Positions 4,875 to 17,922 of a stretch of 20,407 nucleotides of DNA are shown here, one piece after another (the first letter of the stretch is position 1; the number at the start of each line of letters is the position of its first letter). The notes beneath the pieces are model-generated. The model was not told the origin of the DNA, ran no database searches, and saw nothing but the letters and a program-made list of their open reading frames with translations. The stretch lies in the IMG/VR virus record IMGVR_UViG_3300044729_001097, positions 1-20,407 of that record, one strand, 5' to 3'. Source of the stretch: a virus. The position numbers were made by a program, and so were the translations under genes.

Positions 4875-6962
4875 ATGTCCGACACCCTTTTTGCCCCTTC
4901 TTTTGCGCCGTTCTCCGCAGAAACCGACGTTCCTGCTGTGGGGATTGGTGCGCCTGAAGACGGCATCGTGCGGACTATGGCTTTCGCGCCGGCCCTCAAC
5001 GCCCTCCCTGCTGCGTTGCCCTCAAGCGGTAATGTGTTCCGCTCCTACACGCCGCCCCCGCCCGACTCTTTCGATCCTTTCACCGCTGCTATGACGGGTG
5101 GCATTCCTTCTTTCTTCTCCTACCGCGAAGGCGCTCTGCCCGACCTCGGCGGCCCGCCTCCCGACATTGGCAGTGCCGACACAGGCGGCGGCGAAGGTGG
5201 CGATTATGTTCCCCCTCCCTTCTCGTTTGTGCCCAATCCTCCCGGCGCGGTAACTCTCGGGCGTCCTGGAACTGAAGACATTCTTGGTCCCCGTGGCCCG
5301 TCGGTCGTAAGTCCCGGTGCGGGTCTCGCGGGTCCCGCTGGCGGCAGCCTTGTGTTCAATCCGCTATCCAATTTTGCGCCCGGCGTCATGCCTAGCACCG
5401 GCAACTTCCTACAAGACCTTAGTAACCTTTACAATACGCCCGGCTTTACCGGCGCACTCGCGAGCGTTGCGGGTGGCCCTGCCGCAATCCTTTCGCTCCT
5501 AGCCGGAACTGCCCTGTCTCAAGCGGCAGGCGACACCCCTCGCAGTACTGGCGTCCTCGGTGCCCTTTCCGACTTGGTGCGCGATTCCCGCTTGTCGCCC
5601 GAACAGCGCGAACTTGCCCGGCAAACTGCCCGTGACCTCGACGCAGAATCCCGCCGTGCCGCTGAAGCTCGTCAGGGCGTCGTCCTCGAAAACCTCCCCG
5701 CCCCCACACAGGGAGCCCTCGGCCCTGCTGGCGAAGGCGGCAACCAAGTCGCCCCCGGACCCGGCGGTCCCACTAACCAAGAAGCGCCGACTGCCGGTTC
5801 GGTGGCGGTGGACACCCCTCCGACGGGCATGCAAACAGGCTTGGGTGGGATTCCTAGTGCCGCTACTCCAAGCCAGCAGGCGGGTCTCAGTGCCGCTCTT
5901 GATGCGCTCACGGCAGCAGTTGATGCCTTTCAGCAGGCCCGAAACGCGGAGCTTGACGATCCCACTCCCGCAAATATTGAAGCTTCGCGTCAAGCCAATC
6001 AAGCAGCAATAGATGCTCAACGCAGCGTTGATGGTCTTCTAAATTCGATAGCTACGCCCACGGCGCCTGCCCCCGCTGCGCCTCCTGTATCCGAGATAAT
6101 TAGCTCCATCATTGATTCGATTGTCAGCCCTGCGGCAGCCGCCACCCTAGGAGGCACACCGGGCGGGGCTTTCGGCGCCCCAGATGGCCTAGGCGAAGGT
6201 TGGGGTGACGCTGACTTCGGTGGTTTTGCCGACGCTCAAGATGCTGCCAATGCTGCTGCCCAAGCTGACGCCAATGCTGCTGCCGCCAACGCCGACGCAG
6301 ATTCCCAGCCGGGCGGGGTGGATAGCGGCGATGCTCCCGGCGATGCTGGCGATGCCGGTGACGCTGGGGATGCTGGTGGTGATGCTGGCGAGGGCGGTGA
6401 TGCCGGTGGCGATGCTGGCGGCGATTCCGGTGGTGATGGAGGAGGCGACGGTGGTGGAGATGGTGGCGGTGATGGCGGCGGCGGAGATGGTGGGGGTGGT
6501 GATGGCGGCGGTGGCGGCGACGGTGGAGGCGGCGGTGATGGCGGTTATCGCAGGGGCGGCGTCGTGAAGTACGCTGAAGGCGGCCTCGCTGTTCTCGGCA
6601 ATGACTTTAATTTTGACGGCGGCTATGCTATAAACATGATGGGCGGTCAAATGCCCGAAGCCTTTGCTGGCGGGGGCCTTGTTCCGCTGGCAGGCGGCGG
6701 CAAGATTGCCATTGGTCCCGGCGGCGGCCTCGACGACCTGATCCCAACGTCCATCAATGGGCGGCGGGCTGCGGCTCTTTCGGATGGTGAGTTCGTCATC
6801 CCCGCCGACGTAGTCTCCATGCTTGGGGACGGTTCTTCTAACGCAGGCGCCCGGCGTCTGTACGATCTGATGAGGCAAATTCGCGACGCCAAGACCGGAA
6901 CTACGCGCCAAGCTGGTCCTCTGCCCGTTGGCGAGATTCTTAAAAGGAGCCTTGGCGAATGA
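4875..6962 (+). CDS. Large Gly/Asp-rich virion protein with C-terminal LSDGEFV domain
   Basis: A 695-aa protein preceded by AGAAGG with 6-nt spacing. Residues 1-200 are Pro/Gly/Ala-rich and apparently unstructured. Residues about 225-270 and 340-400 are helical (LSPEQRELARQTARDLDAES; AALDALTAAVDAFQQARNAE). Residues about 485-557 are almost pure Gly, Asp and Ala repeats. The last 135 residues form a compact domain with the motifs YAEGGLA, IPTSINGRRAAALSDGEFVI and SNAGARRLYDLMRQIR. I recognise that end as a conserved domain of podovirus structural or ejection proteins. It is the first gene after the promoter and overlaps the next gene by ATGA. A virion or ejection role is inferred; the Gly/Asp tract has no known function. 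Confidence 0.62.
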   Translation: MSDTLFAPSFAPFSAETDVPAVGIGAPEDGIVRTMAFAPALNALPAALPSSGNVFRSYTPPPPDSFDPFTAAMTGGIPSFFSYREGALPDLGGPPPDIGSADTGGGEGGDYVPPPFSFVPNPPGAVTLGRPGTEDILGPRGPSVVSPGAGLAGPAGGSLVFNPLSNFAPGVMPSTGNFLQDLSNLYNTPGFTGALASVAGGPAAILSLLAGTALSQAAGDTPRSTGVLGALSDLVRDSRLSPEQRELARQTARDLDAESRRAAEARQGVVLENLPAPTQGALGPAGEGGNQVAPGPGGPTNQEAPTAGSVAVDTPPTGMQTGLGGIPSAATPSQQAGLSAALDALTAAVDAFQQARNAELDDPTPANIEASRQANQAAIDAQRSVDGLLNSIATPTAPAPAAPPVSEIISSIIDSIVSPAAAATLGGTPGGAFGAPDGLGEGWGDADFGGFADAQDAANAAAQADANAAAANADADSQPGGVDSGDAPGDAGDAGDAGDAGGDAGEGGDAGGDAGGDSGGDGGGDGGGDGGGDGGGGDGGGGDGGGGGDGGGGGDGGYRRGGVVKYAEGGLAVLGNDFNFDGGYAINMMGGQMPEAFAGGGLVPLAGGGKIAIGPGGGLDDLIPTSINGRRAAALSDGEFVIPADVVSMLGDGSSNAGARRLYDLMRQIRDAKTGTTRQAGPLPVGEILKRSLGE
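6328..6546 (+). repeat. Imperfect GAT-GCT-GGC / GGT-GGC-GAT coding repeat
   Basis: About 220 bp of short degenerate triplet-type repeats inside the 695-aa gene encode GDAGDAGDAGD units that grade into GDGGGDGGGGD units (residues about 485-557). The frame is kept throughout, so the tract is translated. Such tracts change length easily by slippage. Confidence 0.9.
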
Positions 6963-13465: not shown

Positions 13466-14236
13466 ATGACAAACTTCGCCTATTACATTGGCGTGGACCA
13501 CCGTGAACCGGAGGCTCTGCGCGTCACCGAATCCTCGGCCCGTGCCTACGCCAGCAAGCCGCTGACAATCAGGCACCTCGAACATCTGGACCTGCGGCGT
13601 CGTCAGTTCTTTGACAGGCCGTGGCGCATCTGCGAAGACGGCTCCTACCTCGACGAACGAGACGGCAGACCGTTCAGCGTCCAGTTCTCCCACTCCCGCT
13701 TCCTGACACCTATCGTCGCACAGTCCGACGGCGTGACCGATTGGGCGCTGTTCACGGACTGCGACTGGCTGTGGCTCGACGATATCCACAAGCTGCTGCG
13801 CGAAGCCGACCCCACCAAGACGGTCATGGTCGTGCCGCACAACTTCAATCCGACGACCACCGTCAAGATGGATGGGCAGAAGCAGTCCCGCTACCACCGC
13901 AAGATGTGGTCGGCGCTGATGCTGTGGAACCTCAAGTCCAAGAAGCTGCCCACCTTCGAGATGGTGAACTCCGCTCCCGGCAGCTACCTGCACGGCTTCG
14001 AGTGGCTGGACGATTCCGACATCGGCTACCTCTCCGAGTCGTGGCACTGGGTCCCGAACTACAGCCCCACCACGGAAGTCGGTCTTGCTGCCGAAGAGGC
14101 GCACCGCCCGCTGCCCATCAATGGAATCCACTTCACGTATGGGCCGCCCGTGCCGGGCATGGTAGACCGTGAGACAACTCCCTTCGATGAATACTGGACG
14201 AACGAACTCCTCGGAGCTTACGCCGATGCGCGCTAA
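13466..14236 (+). CDS. Phage glycosyltransferase (GT-A fold, DxD motif)
   Basis: A 256-aa protein. I start it at ATG 13466 because an upstream TTG at 13427 would lie at the edge of the -35 box. It has the elements of a phage GT-A glycosyltransferase family: YYIGVDHREPEALRV at the N terminus, FSVQFSHSRFLTP near residue 75, and the metal/nucleotide-sugar motif D98-C99-D100 within WALFTDCDWLW. Further elements are VKMDGQKQSRYHRKMWSALM, LHGFEWLDDSDIGYL, and a C-terminal HFTYGPPVPG supplying a likely metal-binding His. It should transfer a sugar from a nucleotide donor; the acceptor is unknown (host surface glycan or virion protein). No Shine-Dalgarno is close to the start. It overlaps the next gene by 11 nt. 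Confidence 0.8.
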   Translation: MTNFAYYIGVDHREPEALRVTESSARAYASKPLTIRHLEHLDLRRRQFFDRPWRICEDGSYLDERDGRPFSVQFSHSRFLTPIVAQSDGVTDWALFTDCDWLWLDDIHKLLREADPTKTVMVVPHNFNPTTTVKMDGQKQSRYHRKMWSALMLWNLKSKKLPTFEMVNSAPGSYLHGFEWLDDSDIGYLSESWHWVPNYSPTTEVGLAAEEAHRPLPINGIHFTYGPPVPGMVDRETTPFDEYWTNELLGAYADAR

Positions 14237-16370
14237 GATCATCACCACAATCGGCCCCAACTCATGGGAACGGTACGGCCTACGCTTTGCCGAATCCTTC
14301 AAGAAGTTCTGGCCCGCCGACATCGAACTTGAAATCTGGCACCACGATCTCGAAGGCAACGTGCCCAACTTTCCGGGCATCACCTTTCACGCCCTCGAAG
14401 ATACGCCGTCCTTCCGGAAGCTCAAGGCCCACATCGGCGCCCAAGCCAAGGATGGCCCGTCCCTCGACTACTGCTTCAAGGCAGTCGCCCTCGCCTCCAG
14501 CGTGACGCCCGAACTGGATTGGATCGGCTTCATCGACGCCGACACCGAGACCATGCGGCCCGTTGATATCGACCTCCTTGGCGAACTCTTCGACGACAAC
14601 TACCATCTGACCTACTTGTATCGGAAGTCCGTCAAGGAAAGCGAGGGCTCTTGGTTCGCCTTCAATCTGGCTACCGTCAAGGGCGCTTCCCTGCTGGCCG
14701 ACTACTGGGGCCTCTACAATTCGTTGGAAGCCTTCCACTACAAGAAGGCCCACGACAACGCAGTCCTTGATCGCATCGCCCTGCTACACCTGGCGCACGG
14801 CCTGCAAATCAAGAACTTGTCGCCGGGCTGCCTCGGCCTCGATGCCTTCCACCAGTCTCCGCTTGCCGCCTACATGGTCCACTACAAAGGCCCTGACAAG
14901 CAGACCATCGCCAACCCGGCCCTCGGTGCCCCGGCCCGCTACGAGACTCTATGCGAACTGCTGACCGCCTCCATCGCCGCAACGAACGCTGCCCGCATTG
15001 TGGAGGTCGGCACTTGGAACGGCAGTCGCGCAATCCAGATGGCCGAAACCGCCTTCGCTACCGGCGTCAAGACCGTATCCTACGTCGGCTTCGACACCTT
15101 CGAGGGCGGCAACGACCGCGTCCATGAGGGCCACACCAAGCCCCATGCCGACTCTTGGATTATCCACAACCGCCTCAACAACTACAGCCGCCTGATGGCG
15201 CGGAAGGGCCTGACCTTCGCCTTCTCCCTCGTCAAGGGCAACACCCTCAAGACTCTGCCCGACTCCGCCGCTCTTGTAGCAGATGCTACATTTGCCTACA
15301 TCGACGGCGGCCACTCCTACGAGACGACCAAGTCGGACTACGAATGCCTGAAGCATGTACCCTTCATCGTCTTCGATGATGTCATCGTCAACGAGGAAGA
15401 GGGTTCGCCGGAAGGTCCGCGCCGTGTCATGAAGGAAATCCCCGGCCAGAAGCGAATCATCACCAGCGGTGACGGTTACGCGGGCCTGACGCAAACCATC
15501 TCGTTCGGCCTAGTCGTGCGCGACGGCTACCCGGTGCCGGAACTCAAGACCCGCATCCAAGTAAAGCCGGTCGATTCTGTTGACAAGGGCGAGCAACTTC
15601 AGCATATTGCAGATAACGCTGCCGCCATTCCAACTTGGATTGGTGCCTACCAAGCACACGAAGGCGTCGCCCTGTTCGTCAGTGCAGGCCCGACCCTTCC
15701 CAACTTCCTCGAAGAAATCCGCGCCAAGCAGGCAGCCGGTGCCACAGTCTTTGCCGTCAAGCACTCACTGCCCGTCCTGAAGAAGGCCGGTATCACGCCT
15801 GACTGGACGGTCATTCTCGATCCGCGCCCGGTCGATGGCCTGTCTACGCACGGCGTCATCCGTACCGACCTCTTCGCGGACGTTGGCCCGGAAGACAAGT
15901 TCCTCTTCGCCACCATGACGCATCCCTCGGTGCGCCAAGTCCTCGAAGAGAAGGGCGCCCAACTCTTTGGCTGGCATGCCCACACCCAAGCGACGCAAGC
16001 CGCAAAGCTCCCGGCCTTCAACACCGGCATGGTTGTGGCGGGCGGCACCTGCTCCGCTACCCGCATTCCGATGCTGGCTTTCGTGATGGGCTTCCGCCGT
16101 TTCCACTTCTACGGCTACGACTTCTTCTACCCCGACAACACCACGCAGGACGACATCAAGCAACAACTGATGCGCGTGAATCTGGGCGCCGATCAGCGTT
16201 CCTTCCTGACGACTGGCGAACTCATCGCTGCCATGCAGGACTTGGGTCAGTGGAATCGTTGGCTTGTGGAGAACCGTACTAGCGTGACATTCCACGGCGA
16301 GGGTGCTGGCGCCCTCATTTGGAAGCAGACCGTCAACAACTACGAAGCCCCGAAGGAGTATCCGTTCTGA
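14226..16370 (+). CDS. Three-domain glycosyltransferase / SAM methyltransferase / MptE-MAF-like protein
   Basis: A 714-aa protein started at ATG 14226, overlapping the preceding gene; the longer reading would intrude 19 codons into it. Residues 1-230 look like a second GT-A domain, with D104-A-D106 in GFIDADTE and the end YMVHYKGPDKQ. Residues about 240-430 are a class I methyltransferase: IVEVGTWNGS (258-267) is the SAM-binding loop, followed by YVGFDTF, AYIDGGHSYE (357-366) and FDDV (383-386), as in Methyltransf_24-type enzymes. Residues about 475-690 resemble the MptE-like/MAF_flag10 domain: VALFVSAGPTL (481-491), LDPRP, and GGTCSATRIPMLAFVMGF leading to FHFYGYD. MAF proteins glycosylate flagellins, whereas MptE is a pterin pyrophosphokinase. 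With its neighbour it points to making or modifying a methylated glycan. The substrate is unknown. Confidence 0.78.
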   Translation: MRAKIITTIGPNSWERYGLRFAESFKKFWPADIELEIWHHDLEGNVPNFPGITFHALEDTPSFRKLKAHIGAQAKDGPSLDYCFKAVALASSVTPELDWIGFIDADTETMRPVDIDLLGELFDDNYHLTYLYRKSVKESEGSWFAFNLATVKGASLLADYWGLYNSLEAFHYKKAHDNAVLDRIALLHLAHGLQIKNLSPGCLGLDAFHQSPLAAYMVHYKGPDKQTIANPALGAPARYETLCELLTASIAATNAARIVEVGTWNGSRAIQMAETAFATGVKTVSYVGFDTFEGGNDRVHEGHTKPHADSWIIHNRLNNYSRLMARKGLTFAFSLVKGNTLKTLPDSAALVADATFAYIDGGHSYETTKSDYECLKHVPFIVFDDVIVNEEEGSPEGPRRVMKEIPGQKRIITSGDGYAGLTQTISFGLVVRDGYPVPELKTRIQVKPVDSVDKGEQLQHIADNAAAIPTWIGAYQAHEGVALFVSAGPTLPNFLEEIRAKQAAGATVFAVKHSLPVLKKAGITPDWTVILDPRPVDGLSTHGVIRTDLFADVGPEDKFLFATMTHPSVRQVLEEKGAQLFGWHAHTQATQAAKLPAFNTGMVVAGGTCSATRIPMLAFVMGFRRFHFYGYDFFYPDNTTQDDIKQQLMRVNLGADQRSFLTTGELIAAMQDLGQWNRWLVENRTSVTFHGEGAGALIWKQTVNNYEAPKEYPF

Positions 16371-16615
16371 TGACGCATGTATATGAAGGCAAGCCCGATG
16401 GCCGCCAACTCGAAACTGTCCAACCCGTCTCCCGCTTTCGGCCCCGTTATCGGGCGCTGACTGACGACGAGAAGGTGCTGCACGATAAGATCAAGGCCAA
16501 GGCCGAAGAACTTGAAACCTTGTTCAACGAAGTGAAGGACGGGCGTTATAAGTCGCTGGCGTTCACATCCCTTGAGCAGTCCGTCATGTGGATCGTCAAG
16601 GAACTGACGTCTTAG
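16370..16615 (+). CDS. Acb2/Tad1-like hairpin protein, putative cyclic-nucleotide sponge
   Basis: An 81-aa protein whose ATG overlaps the preceding stop (TGATG). Residues 24-80 match, from memory, the two-helix Acb2/Tad1 hairpin family (formerly DUF7681): RYRALTDDEKVLHDKIKAKA, EELETLFNEV, a short turn, then SLEQSVMWIVKELT. Acb2 proteins form hexamers that bind cyclic di- and trinucleotides and block CBASS; related Tad1 proteins bind gcADPR and block Thoeris. As I recall, Acb2 of phage PaMx33 needs Y11 and K26. Here Y27 and K42 lie at the same 15-residue spacing within the same YR.L...IK context. An N-terminal extension of about 20 residues is unusual. Family assignment is good; the bound nucleotide and anti-defence activity are inferred. 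The stop overlaps the convergent gene (TTAG). Confidence 0.74.
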   Translation: MTHVYEGKPDGRQLETVQPVSRFRPRYRALTDDEKVLHDKIKAKAEELETLFNEVKDGRYKSLAFTSLEQSVMWIVKELTS

Positions 16616-16857
16616 CGGAACTTCTTCGCGATATTGGCGGCGCTGGCAGGCTGCTTCGAAAACTGCTTGCCAGCCTTCGTCGCCTTCCGCTTCGCTGCAC
16701 TACTCGCCGCATAAGTCGCAGCAGGCATAGCCTTGATGGCAGCCTCGGGTAGATACCGTTCGCCTGTAGCCTGCGGCCCCTGCGTACTAGGCTTGCCCGA
16801 CTTGGTGCGCCACTTCTGCTTGGTCCAATCGACCAGCGACTTCTGCGGGGCCTTCAC
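16612..16857 (-). CDS. DUF5872-like small phage protein
   Basis: An 81-aa basic protein with a GTG start embedded in the stop of the upstream nuclease gene (GTGA). It has the hallmarks of a family I recognise as DUF5872: SLVDWTKQKWRTKSGKPS near the N terminus, ATGERYLPEAAIKAM in the middle, and AAKRKATKAGKQFSKQP before a basic tail. The family is widespread in marine phages. Its function is unknown to me; the basic composition would allow nucleic-acid binding. It is the last gene of the minus-strand operon and ends in a four-base overlap with the Acb2-like gene. Confidence 0.72.
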   Translation of the reverse strand: MKAPQKSLVDWTKQKWRTKSGKPSTQGPQATGERYLPEAAIKAMPAATYAASSAAKRKATKAGKQFSKQPASAANIAKKFR

Positions 16858-17282: not shown

Positions 17283-17460
17283 GGTACTTGCCGCCCTTCG
17301 CCTTATATTCTGAGGCGAGCATCTGAGCTTTGCGGGCGCTCCACTGGCCCGGCCTGCCGCCCTTGTCCCCCGCTTTAATGCGTTCGAACAAAGACTTACG
17401 CATGCCGGGCTTCGTGTAGACGCCCGCTTCGTTCACCCGACTTTCGGGCTTCTTGGCCAT
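17275..17460 (-). CDS. Conserved 61-aa basic phage protein
   Basis: A 61-aa protein with an ATG start overlapping the preceding stop by one base (TAATG). The sequence pattern, RVNEAGVYTKPGMRKSLFER followed by IKAGDKGGRPGQWSARKAQM and a Gly/Lys-rich end, is one I recognise from many uncultured aquatic phages, often close to DUF5872-like genes. It is strongly basic and probably binds nucleic acid or an acidic partner, but no role is known to me. The intact frame and tight packing support a real gene. Confidence 0.68.
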   Translation of the reverse strand: MAKKPESRVNEAGVYTKPGMRKSLFERIKAGDKGGRPGQWSARKAQMLASEYKAKGGKYRD

Positions 17461-17636
17461 TAGCCAGCCATCAGGCAGCGACCAGCCTTACGGCAAGCCG
17501 CCGGGTTCGGGCACTGCGCGCATGGCACCTTGCCGCCCTTCTGCATCTTGACTGGCTTACCAGCAGCAACCTTGCCGCCAGCCTTCTTCTTCATCGGGCC
17601 TTGCGTAACCTGCTTGCCCATGTTCGAACGCATCAT
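17460..17636 (-). CDS. 58-aa Lys/Gly-rich protein with four-cysteine C terminus
   Basis: Found by reading the minus strand between 17460 and 17640. An ATG at 17636 (others at 17633 and 17621) opens a 58-codon frame ending in TAA at 17460-17462. Upstream AAGGGGAAG is a plausible ribosome site. The first half carries MKKKAGGKVAAGKP and KMQKGGKV, the Lys/Gly motif also found in the two genes upstream. The end, VPCAQCPNPAACRKAGRCLM, has four cysteines (C39, C42, C48, C54) and may bind zinc. It fills exactly the gap between the 94-aa and 61-aa genes and overlaps the latter by one base. No known function. Confidence 0.68.
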   Translation of the reverse strand: MMRSNMGKQVTQGPMKKKAGGKVAAGKPVKMQKGGKVPCAQCPNPAACRKAGRCLMAG

Positions 17637-17637
17637 A

Positions 17638-17922
17638 TTACTTCCCCTTCGCCTTGGGCTTGCCGATCATACCACCGGCCTTCTTCTTGACCATACCGCC
17701 CTTCTTCATGCGGCTCGACATGCCCTCCAGTTCACGGGCCGTCAGCGGGGCATCAGCCTCACGACGTTCCTCCGGGGTCATCATGCTGCGAGCCTGCCGG
17801 CGCTGCTCCTGCGTCATGACTGGCACGCCCTTCTGGCCGCCGTCCATACCCCGCCGCTTACCAGACGCGCGCACCGGCCCGCCCTCCTGATACATCATTC
17901 CCTTCTTCATCATACCAGGCAT
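17638..17922 (-). CDS. 94-aa Met/Lys/Gly-rich phage protein
   Basis: I start this at ATG 17922, one base after the upstream stop, with AAGAAG nearby; a longer frame would run into the upstream gene. It begins MPGMMKKGMMYQEGGPVR. The centre is a charged helix (MTQEQRRQARSMMTPEERRE; LTARELEGM), and the tail is [19 protein letters not shown]. That tail nearly duplicates part of the upstream 379-aa protein at both DNA and protein level. Proteins of this composition are frequent in marine phages and lack assigned functions. It is unlikely to be cytoplasmic-enzymatic; a DNA-binding or virion-packed protein is conceivable. Confidence 0.65.
   Translation of the reverse strand: MPGMMKKGMMYQEGGPVRASGKRRGMDGGQKGVPVMTQEQRRQARSMMTPEERREADAPLTARELEGMSSRMKKGGMVKKKAGGMIGKPKAKGK
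17667..17709. repeat. 43-bp diverged direct repeat, copy A
   Basis: This 43-bp stretch matches 18061-18103 at 38 of 43 positions by hand alignment. It encodes [15 protein letters not shown] at the C terminus of the 94-aa protein. Some substitutions are synonymous, so the peptide is better kept than the DNA. Confidence 0.85.

Follow-up and report, generated by a model that had tools for sequence, protein, structure and literature searches.

A compact Acb2-type hairpin protein, a putative nucleotide sponge, carried as a single-gene cassette between two convergent phage genes

We identified, in a virus record of 20,407 bases analyzed over its whole length (hereafter the window), a gene for an 81-aa protein that is a compact Acb2-type hairpin and very likely a nucleotide sponge with a putative anti-defense role. 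For the nucleotide that it would sequester, a cyclic di- or trinucleotide of CBASS is the most likely candidate, and gcADPR, the Thoeris signal, a less likely one. The gene is an exchangeable single-gene accessory cassette located between two convergent genes.

The hairpin gene and its surroundings

The window is labelled linear by IMG/VR, a label often given to fragments, and no near-identical phage record was found for it. Phage genes occupy the + strand, whereas the - strand carries a gene block that includes endonuclease VII and a GH108 endolysin. A 618-aa protein of the window is approximately 28–35% identical to "stabilization" and other phage virion proteins, and positions 4875–6962 encode a 695-aa protein with a long low-complexity Gly/Asp-rich stretch.

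The hairpin gene (16370..16615, + strand) is an open reading frame from ATG to TAG, identified by Pfam and hhalign. Its start codon and the stop codon of the upstream enzyme gene (14226..16370, + strand, counted from the likely start; the reading frame opens at 14169) overlap as TGATG, and the hairpin gene ends where the convergent gp16 (phrog_14910; 16612..16857, - strand) ends. Both neighbors lie outside the system, with gp16 forming the right border of the insertion site. Judging from the sequence, AAGGAG at 16353..16358 (+ strand), 11 nt 5' of the ATG, is the likely ribosome-binding site. The ATG is kept in relatives, and an upstream in-frame start (e.g., TTG at 16319) is missing from one of them, L009.

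Family membership and predicted fold

Membership of the Acb2/Tad1 hairpin family, proposed in the preliminary description of this DNA, was borne out by profile searches. Residues 27–77 matched Pfam PF24729 (Acb2/Tad1 hairpin) with 59 bits and an E-value of 5.3e-16, the curated cutoff being 27 bits and the studied proteins PaP2 Acb2 and T4 Vs.4 scoring 66 and 71 bits, respectively. A clade profile aligned with PaP2 Acb2 over both helices (hhalign 97%, E 9e-11), the relatives' profile picked up PaP2 Acb2 in the PDB (E = 4e-5), and a broader profile picked up Tad1 (E 3e-5), Acb2 homolog 43 (E 4e-4), and Vs.4 (E 2e-3). The PDB match needed a profile, as a single-sequence search with the window protein returned nothing relevant. 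No match was found among the PADLOC models, and the PHROG matches were to families without known function. A bridging protein in locus L033 ends in the same QPDSF tail as PaP2 Acb2, with which it shares 34% identity, and is 36% identical to the window protein. Further, the hairpin clade, comprising 72 distinct proteins, is under clear purifying selection, with a dN/dS of about 0.16 that is rough because dS is near saturation. Because of this selection and the PF24729 E-value, the gene is far beyond chance.

The hairpin fold had also been anticipated, and the AlphaFold2 (AF2) monomer model agrees with it: an antiparallel two-helix hairpin with helix 1 at residues 32–52 (16463..16525, + strand) and helix 2 at residues 59–80 (16544..16609, + strand), with pLDDT mostly >90 in the helices and a low-confidence N-terminus, the region in which Acb2-type sponges have a short helix. 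Acb2 structures ranked first in a Foldseek search of the PDB (best probability 0.98–0.99, TM about 0.6, E near 0.5), and the best BFVD structure matches were mostly named Acb2/Tad1 hairpin. VIA-align gave Z scores of 7.1 for Acb2 homolog 43 (over 57 residues), 6.8 for Acb2, and 6.6 for Vs.4, and also 7.5 for an unrelated influenza hairpin. The two-helix hairpin is therefore a common shape that alone proves nothing, a point that weighs against a sponge.

The window protein shares with Tad1 (PDB 7UAV, 8KBH) the helix 2 motif R...A.T..E...MW. However, Tad1 has an N-terminal antiparallel beta-sheet domain followed by the hairpin (PMC12043709), whereas the AF2 model of the window protein has no strands and only 26 residues before the hairpin. 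Lacking an N-terminal beta domain, the protein is, as far as sequence and model indicate, Acb2-type and set apart from Tad1. The N-terminal extension (residues 1–26; 16370..16447, + strand), delimited from the AF2 model and the alignment of relatives, had been noted beforehand and is real and conserved among relatives, with D10, R12, Q13, and R22-F23-R24-P25 nearly invariant in the 72 distinct proteins.

Conserved residues and candidate ligands

PaP2 Acb2 (p26; PDB 8H2J, 8H2X, 8IXZ) has the same Pfam hairpin as the window protein, and both helices can be aligned. The alignments placed Y27 (codon 16448..16450) on PaP2 Y11 and T4 Y8, K42 (16493..16495) on PaP2 K26, R59 on PaP2 R67, and T66 (16565..16567) on PaP2 T74 and T4 T68, all codons lying on the + strand. 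Y27 and K42 are 15 residues apart, the spacing of Y11 and K26 in PaP2, so a correspondence given in the preliminary description is confirmed by alignment. PaP2 Y11 and T4 Y8 are ligand-contacting tyrosines, and we take PaP2 K26 to be a ligand-contacting lysine. The counterparts of Y27, K42, and T66 in T4 or PaP2 Acb2 matter for binding of the ligand, which speaks for a sponge. In T4 Acb2 (Vs.4; PDB 7UQ2), which also shares a KxE..MW-type helix 2 with the window protein, cyclic dinucleotide binding is lost in Y8A (PMC12657218), and binding is lowered in T68M (PMC12657230). Across the 72 distinct relatives, Y27, R28, L30, E34, K42, R59, T66, E69, M73, W74, and K77 were invariant, and the hairpin-tip positions varied freely.

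Compared with PaP2 Acb2, the window protein has approximately 16 extra residues ahead of the tyrosine and is without approximately 24 hairpin-tip residues and the QPDSF C-terminal tail. T4 Vs.4 likewise has a longer tip, and its ligand-stacking F82 (PMC12657218) is replaced by T80 in the window protein, as counted along the alignment. The shorter tip, the missing tail, and T80 in place of F82 count against a sponge.

Acb2 homolog 43 (PDB 9PTQ), the top match among the Acb2 structures, is a compact hairpin about as long as the window protein and likewise lacks the long tip. Its structure was determined in complex with the Thoeris signal 3'cADPR (PMC13232231). Its sequence is distant (19% identity in the structural alignment), and its helix 2 (REKSVFKTKLEEAMFF) is similar to RYKSLAFTSLEQSVMW of the window protein. 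The window protein could accordingly be a sponge of the same family whose main ligand is the Thoeris signal (gcADPR) instead of a CBASS nucleotide, a reading that we hold as possible and give a minor share of the probability. It gains from the co-occurrence of ThsA with ThsB in 2 of 8 carrier genomes, compared with ThsA in 3 of 150 genomes of one family, but in an order-wide sample ThsA and the hairpin gene were found together in the centre genome only, and helix 1, where Y27 and K42 lie, resembles that of PaP2 Acb2, which binds cyclic dinucleotides. The CBASS and Thoeris readings are not mutually exclusive because Acb2-type proteins can bind several signals.

Insertion site and upstream enzyme

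The gene had been described as the last in a glycan-modification operon, coupled to a three-domain glycan enzyme. By Pfam, the upstream enzyme comprises Methyltransf_24 and MptE-like domains, with no match for the N-terminal part, and a glycan action is partly supported; its AF2 model was poor (mean pLDDT 58), too low for a fold search. A separate search for the enzyme in viral data yielded 36 loci, the window being counted apart. The hairpin gene was directly 3' of the enzyme in 6 of these (L005, L007–L010, and L043), as in the window, and 30 loci were without it, nearly all of them being an exact empty site. There, the enzyme stop directly abuts the gp16 stop, as in CCGTTC-TAGCGGAAC, and the window has 245 bp more between the same stretches, an insert (16368..16612, no strand assigned) delimited by the junctions of L168, L148, L146, and others.

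Other single genes were found at the same enzyme/gp16 junction, encoding a 56-aa lipoprotein-like protein (L161:5169–5339) and a GNAT acetyltransferase (L163:5148–5630), and L160 has a slightly longer gap there. The junction is a small accessory-gene exchange site. In the enzyme tree, carriers of the hairpin gene were scattered (four changes), and a single carrier clade was rejected (p-AU 0.004). The hairpin genes found at this junction form one group (SH-aLRT about 87), and we infer that the gene arrived here once and was later exchanged between related phages or lost from some of them. Translated matches to the upstream enzyme in L158, L161, and L179 contained one in-frame stop each, reflecting a broken gene or a sequencing error.

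The empty sites, the other junction genes, and the scattered carriers mark the hairpin gene as a cassette outside any glycan operon. The operon description thus holds for the position of the gene and fails as a functional statement. The hairpin protein might still be imagined as a functional partner of the enzyme in glycan modification, given the TGATG overlap in the window and the 6 loci with the same adjacency, but this is largely refuted and highly improbable, with the gene missing from most enzyme loci, the enzyme missing from most hairpin loci, and single genes of other kinds occupying the same junction.

Distribution in viruses and bacteria

A viral scan for the hairpin gene returned at least 80 loci with 65–100% identity, and among the viral loci listed most were without the enzyme. 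Neighbors elsewhere were unrelated and varied, including integrases, primases, terminases, portals, and others, so the claimed coupling to the enzyme is not upheld. The closest proteins found in named phages were those of Sinorhizobium phage Aussie and "Dunaliella viridis virus SI2," which are unstudied, equally compact, and share the N-terminal pattern D.R ... YR.L, but are only 33–42% identical to the window protein and stand in other gene neighborhoods. The SI2 record (L003, HQ332136.1; hairpin gene at 17428–17658) belongs to Caudoviricetes, and its algal host label looks doubtful. Hairpin homologs of some Paenibacillus phages are labelled "phosphomannomutase," apparently by misannotation (KT361654.1, 43441–43623; KT361655.1, 42044–42226).

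The Aussie relative lies among head-tail genes, and the Pfam family is broad, with most members unstudied and the PHROG matches without known function. These observations would fit a hairpin-domain protein with a role other than that of a sponge, such as a small protein of the virion or one that helps in its assembly. We consider this unlikely, as close phages do without the gene at exact empty sites, its neighbors include genes as different as integrases, primases, and portals, and no variation is seen at the residues connected with ligand binding. For the sponge reading, the accessory distribution is a point in favor.

Bacterial carriers were mostly alphaproteobacteria, including Bradyrhizobium, Phenylobacterium, Acetobacter, and Azospirillum, and no plasmid relatives of the hairpin gene were found. 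The SMODS (CD-NTase) domain was identified in 4 of 8 carrier genomes and in 19 of 150 genomes of one family (p = 0.014, with a poorly matched baseline from which the centre genome was left out). In an order-wide sample of 397 genomes, the association between the hairpin gene and CD-NTase was not significant (p = 0.29), which counts against a sponge, and we therefore did not use the co-occurrence as support. One carrier, Bradyrhizobium sp. dw_78 (L119, G006:C26:108000-124000), encodes a Thoeris system with ThsA and three ThsB and, approximately 4 kb from it, a CBASS locus comprising a cyclase, an E2, and a patatin, all within about 10 kb. The presence of both systems in a genome that carries the hairpin gene is a further point in favor of a sponge, although host data of this kind serve as background and prove nothing.

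Proposed function and significance

In the mechanism that we propose, two-helix hairpin protomers would probably assemble into an Acb2-like hexamer. At the open end, which is conserved, Y27, R28, and K42 from helix 1 and T66, E69, W74, and K77 from helix 2 would probably form, together with the N-terminal extension, inter-protomer pockets that hold a host nucleotide alarm signal tightly. With the signal sequestered, the host effector would stay off and the phage could replicate, the gene acting as a cassette without a functional tie to the neighboring enzyme. It is a more speculative and rather improbable idea that the compact clade of alphaproteobacterial phages, recognizable by its conserved D.RQ...RFRP extension, possesses a distinct pocket in which it sequesters an immune nucleotide new to the family as a ligand.

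With the window protein as a putative nucleotide sponge, the Acb2 family of sponges would come to include a large phage group, mostly of alphaproteobacteria, that is, as far as we found, unstudied. The compact form of the clade and its conserved N-terminal extension would allow the range of ligands to be charted within a single clade. Further, the exact empty sites offer a clean natural comparison between close phages with and without a likely counter-defense gene, and they pinpoint a site of exchange for small genes of this kind.
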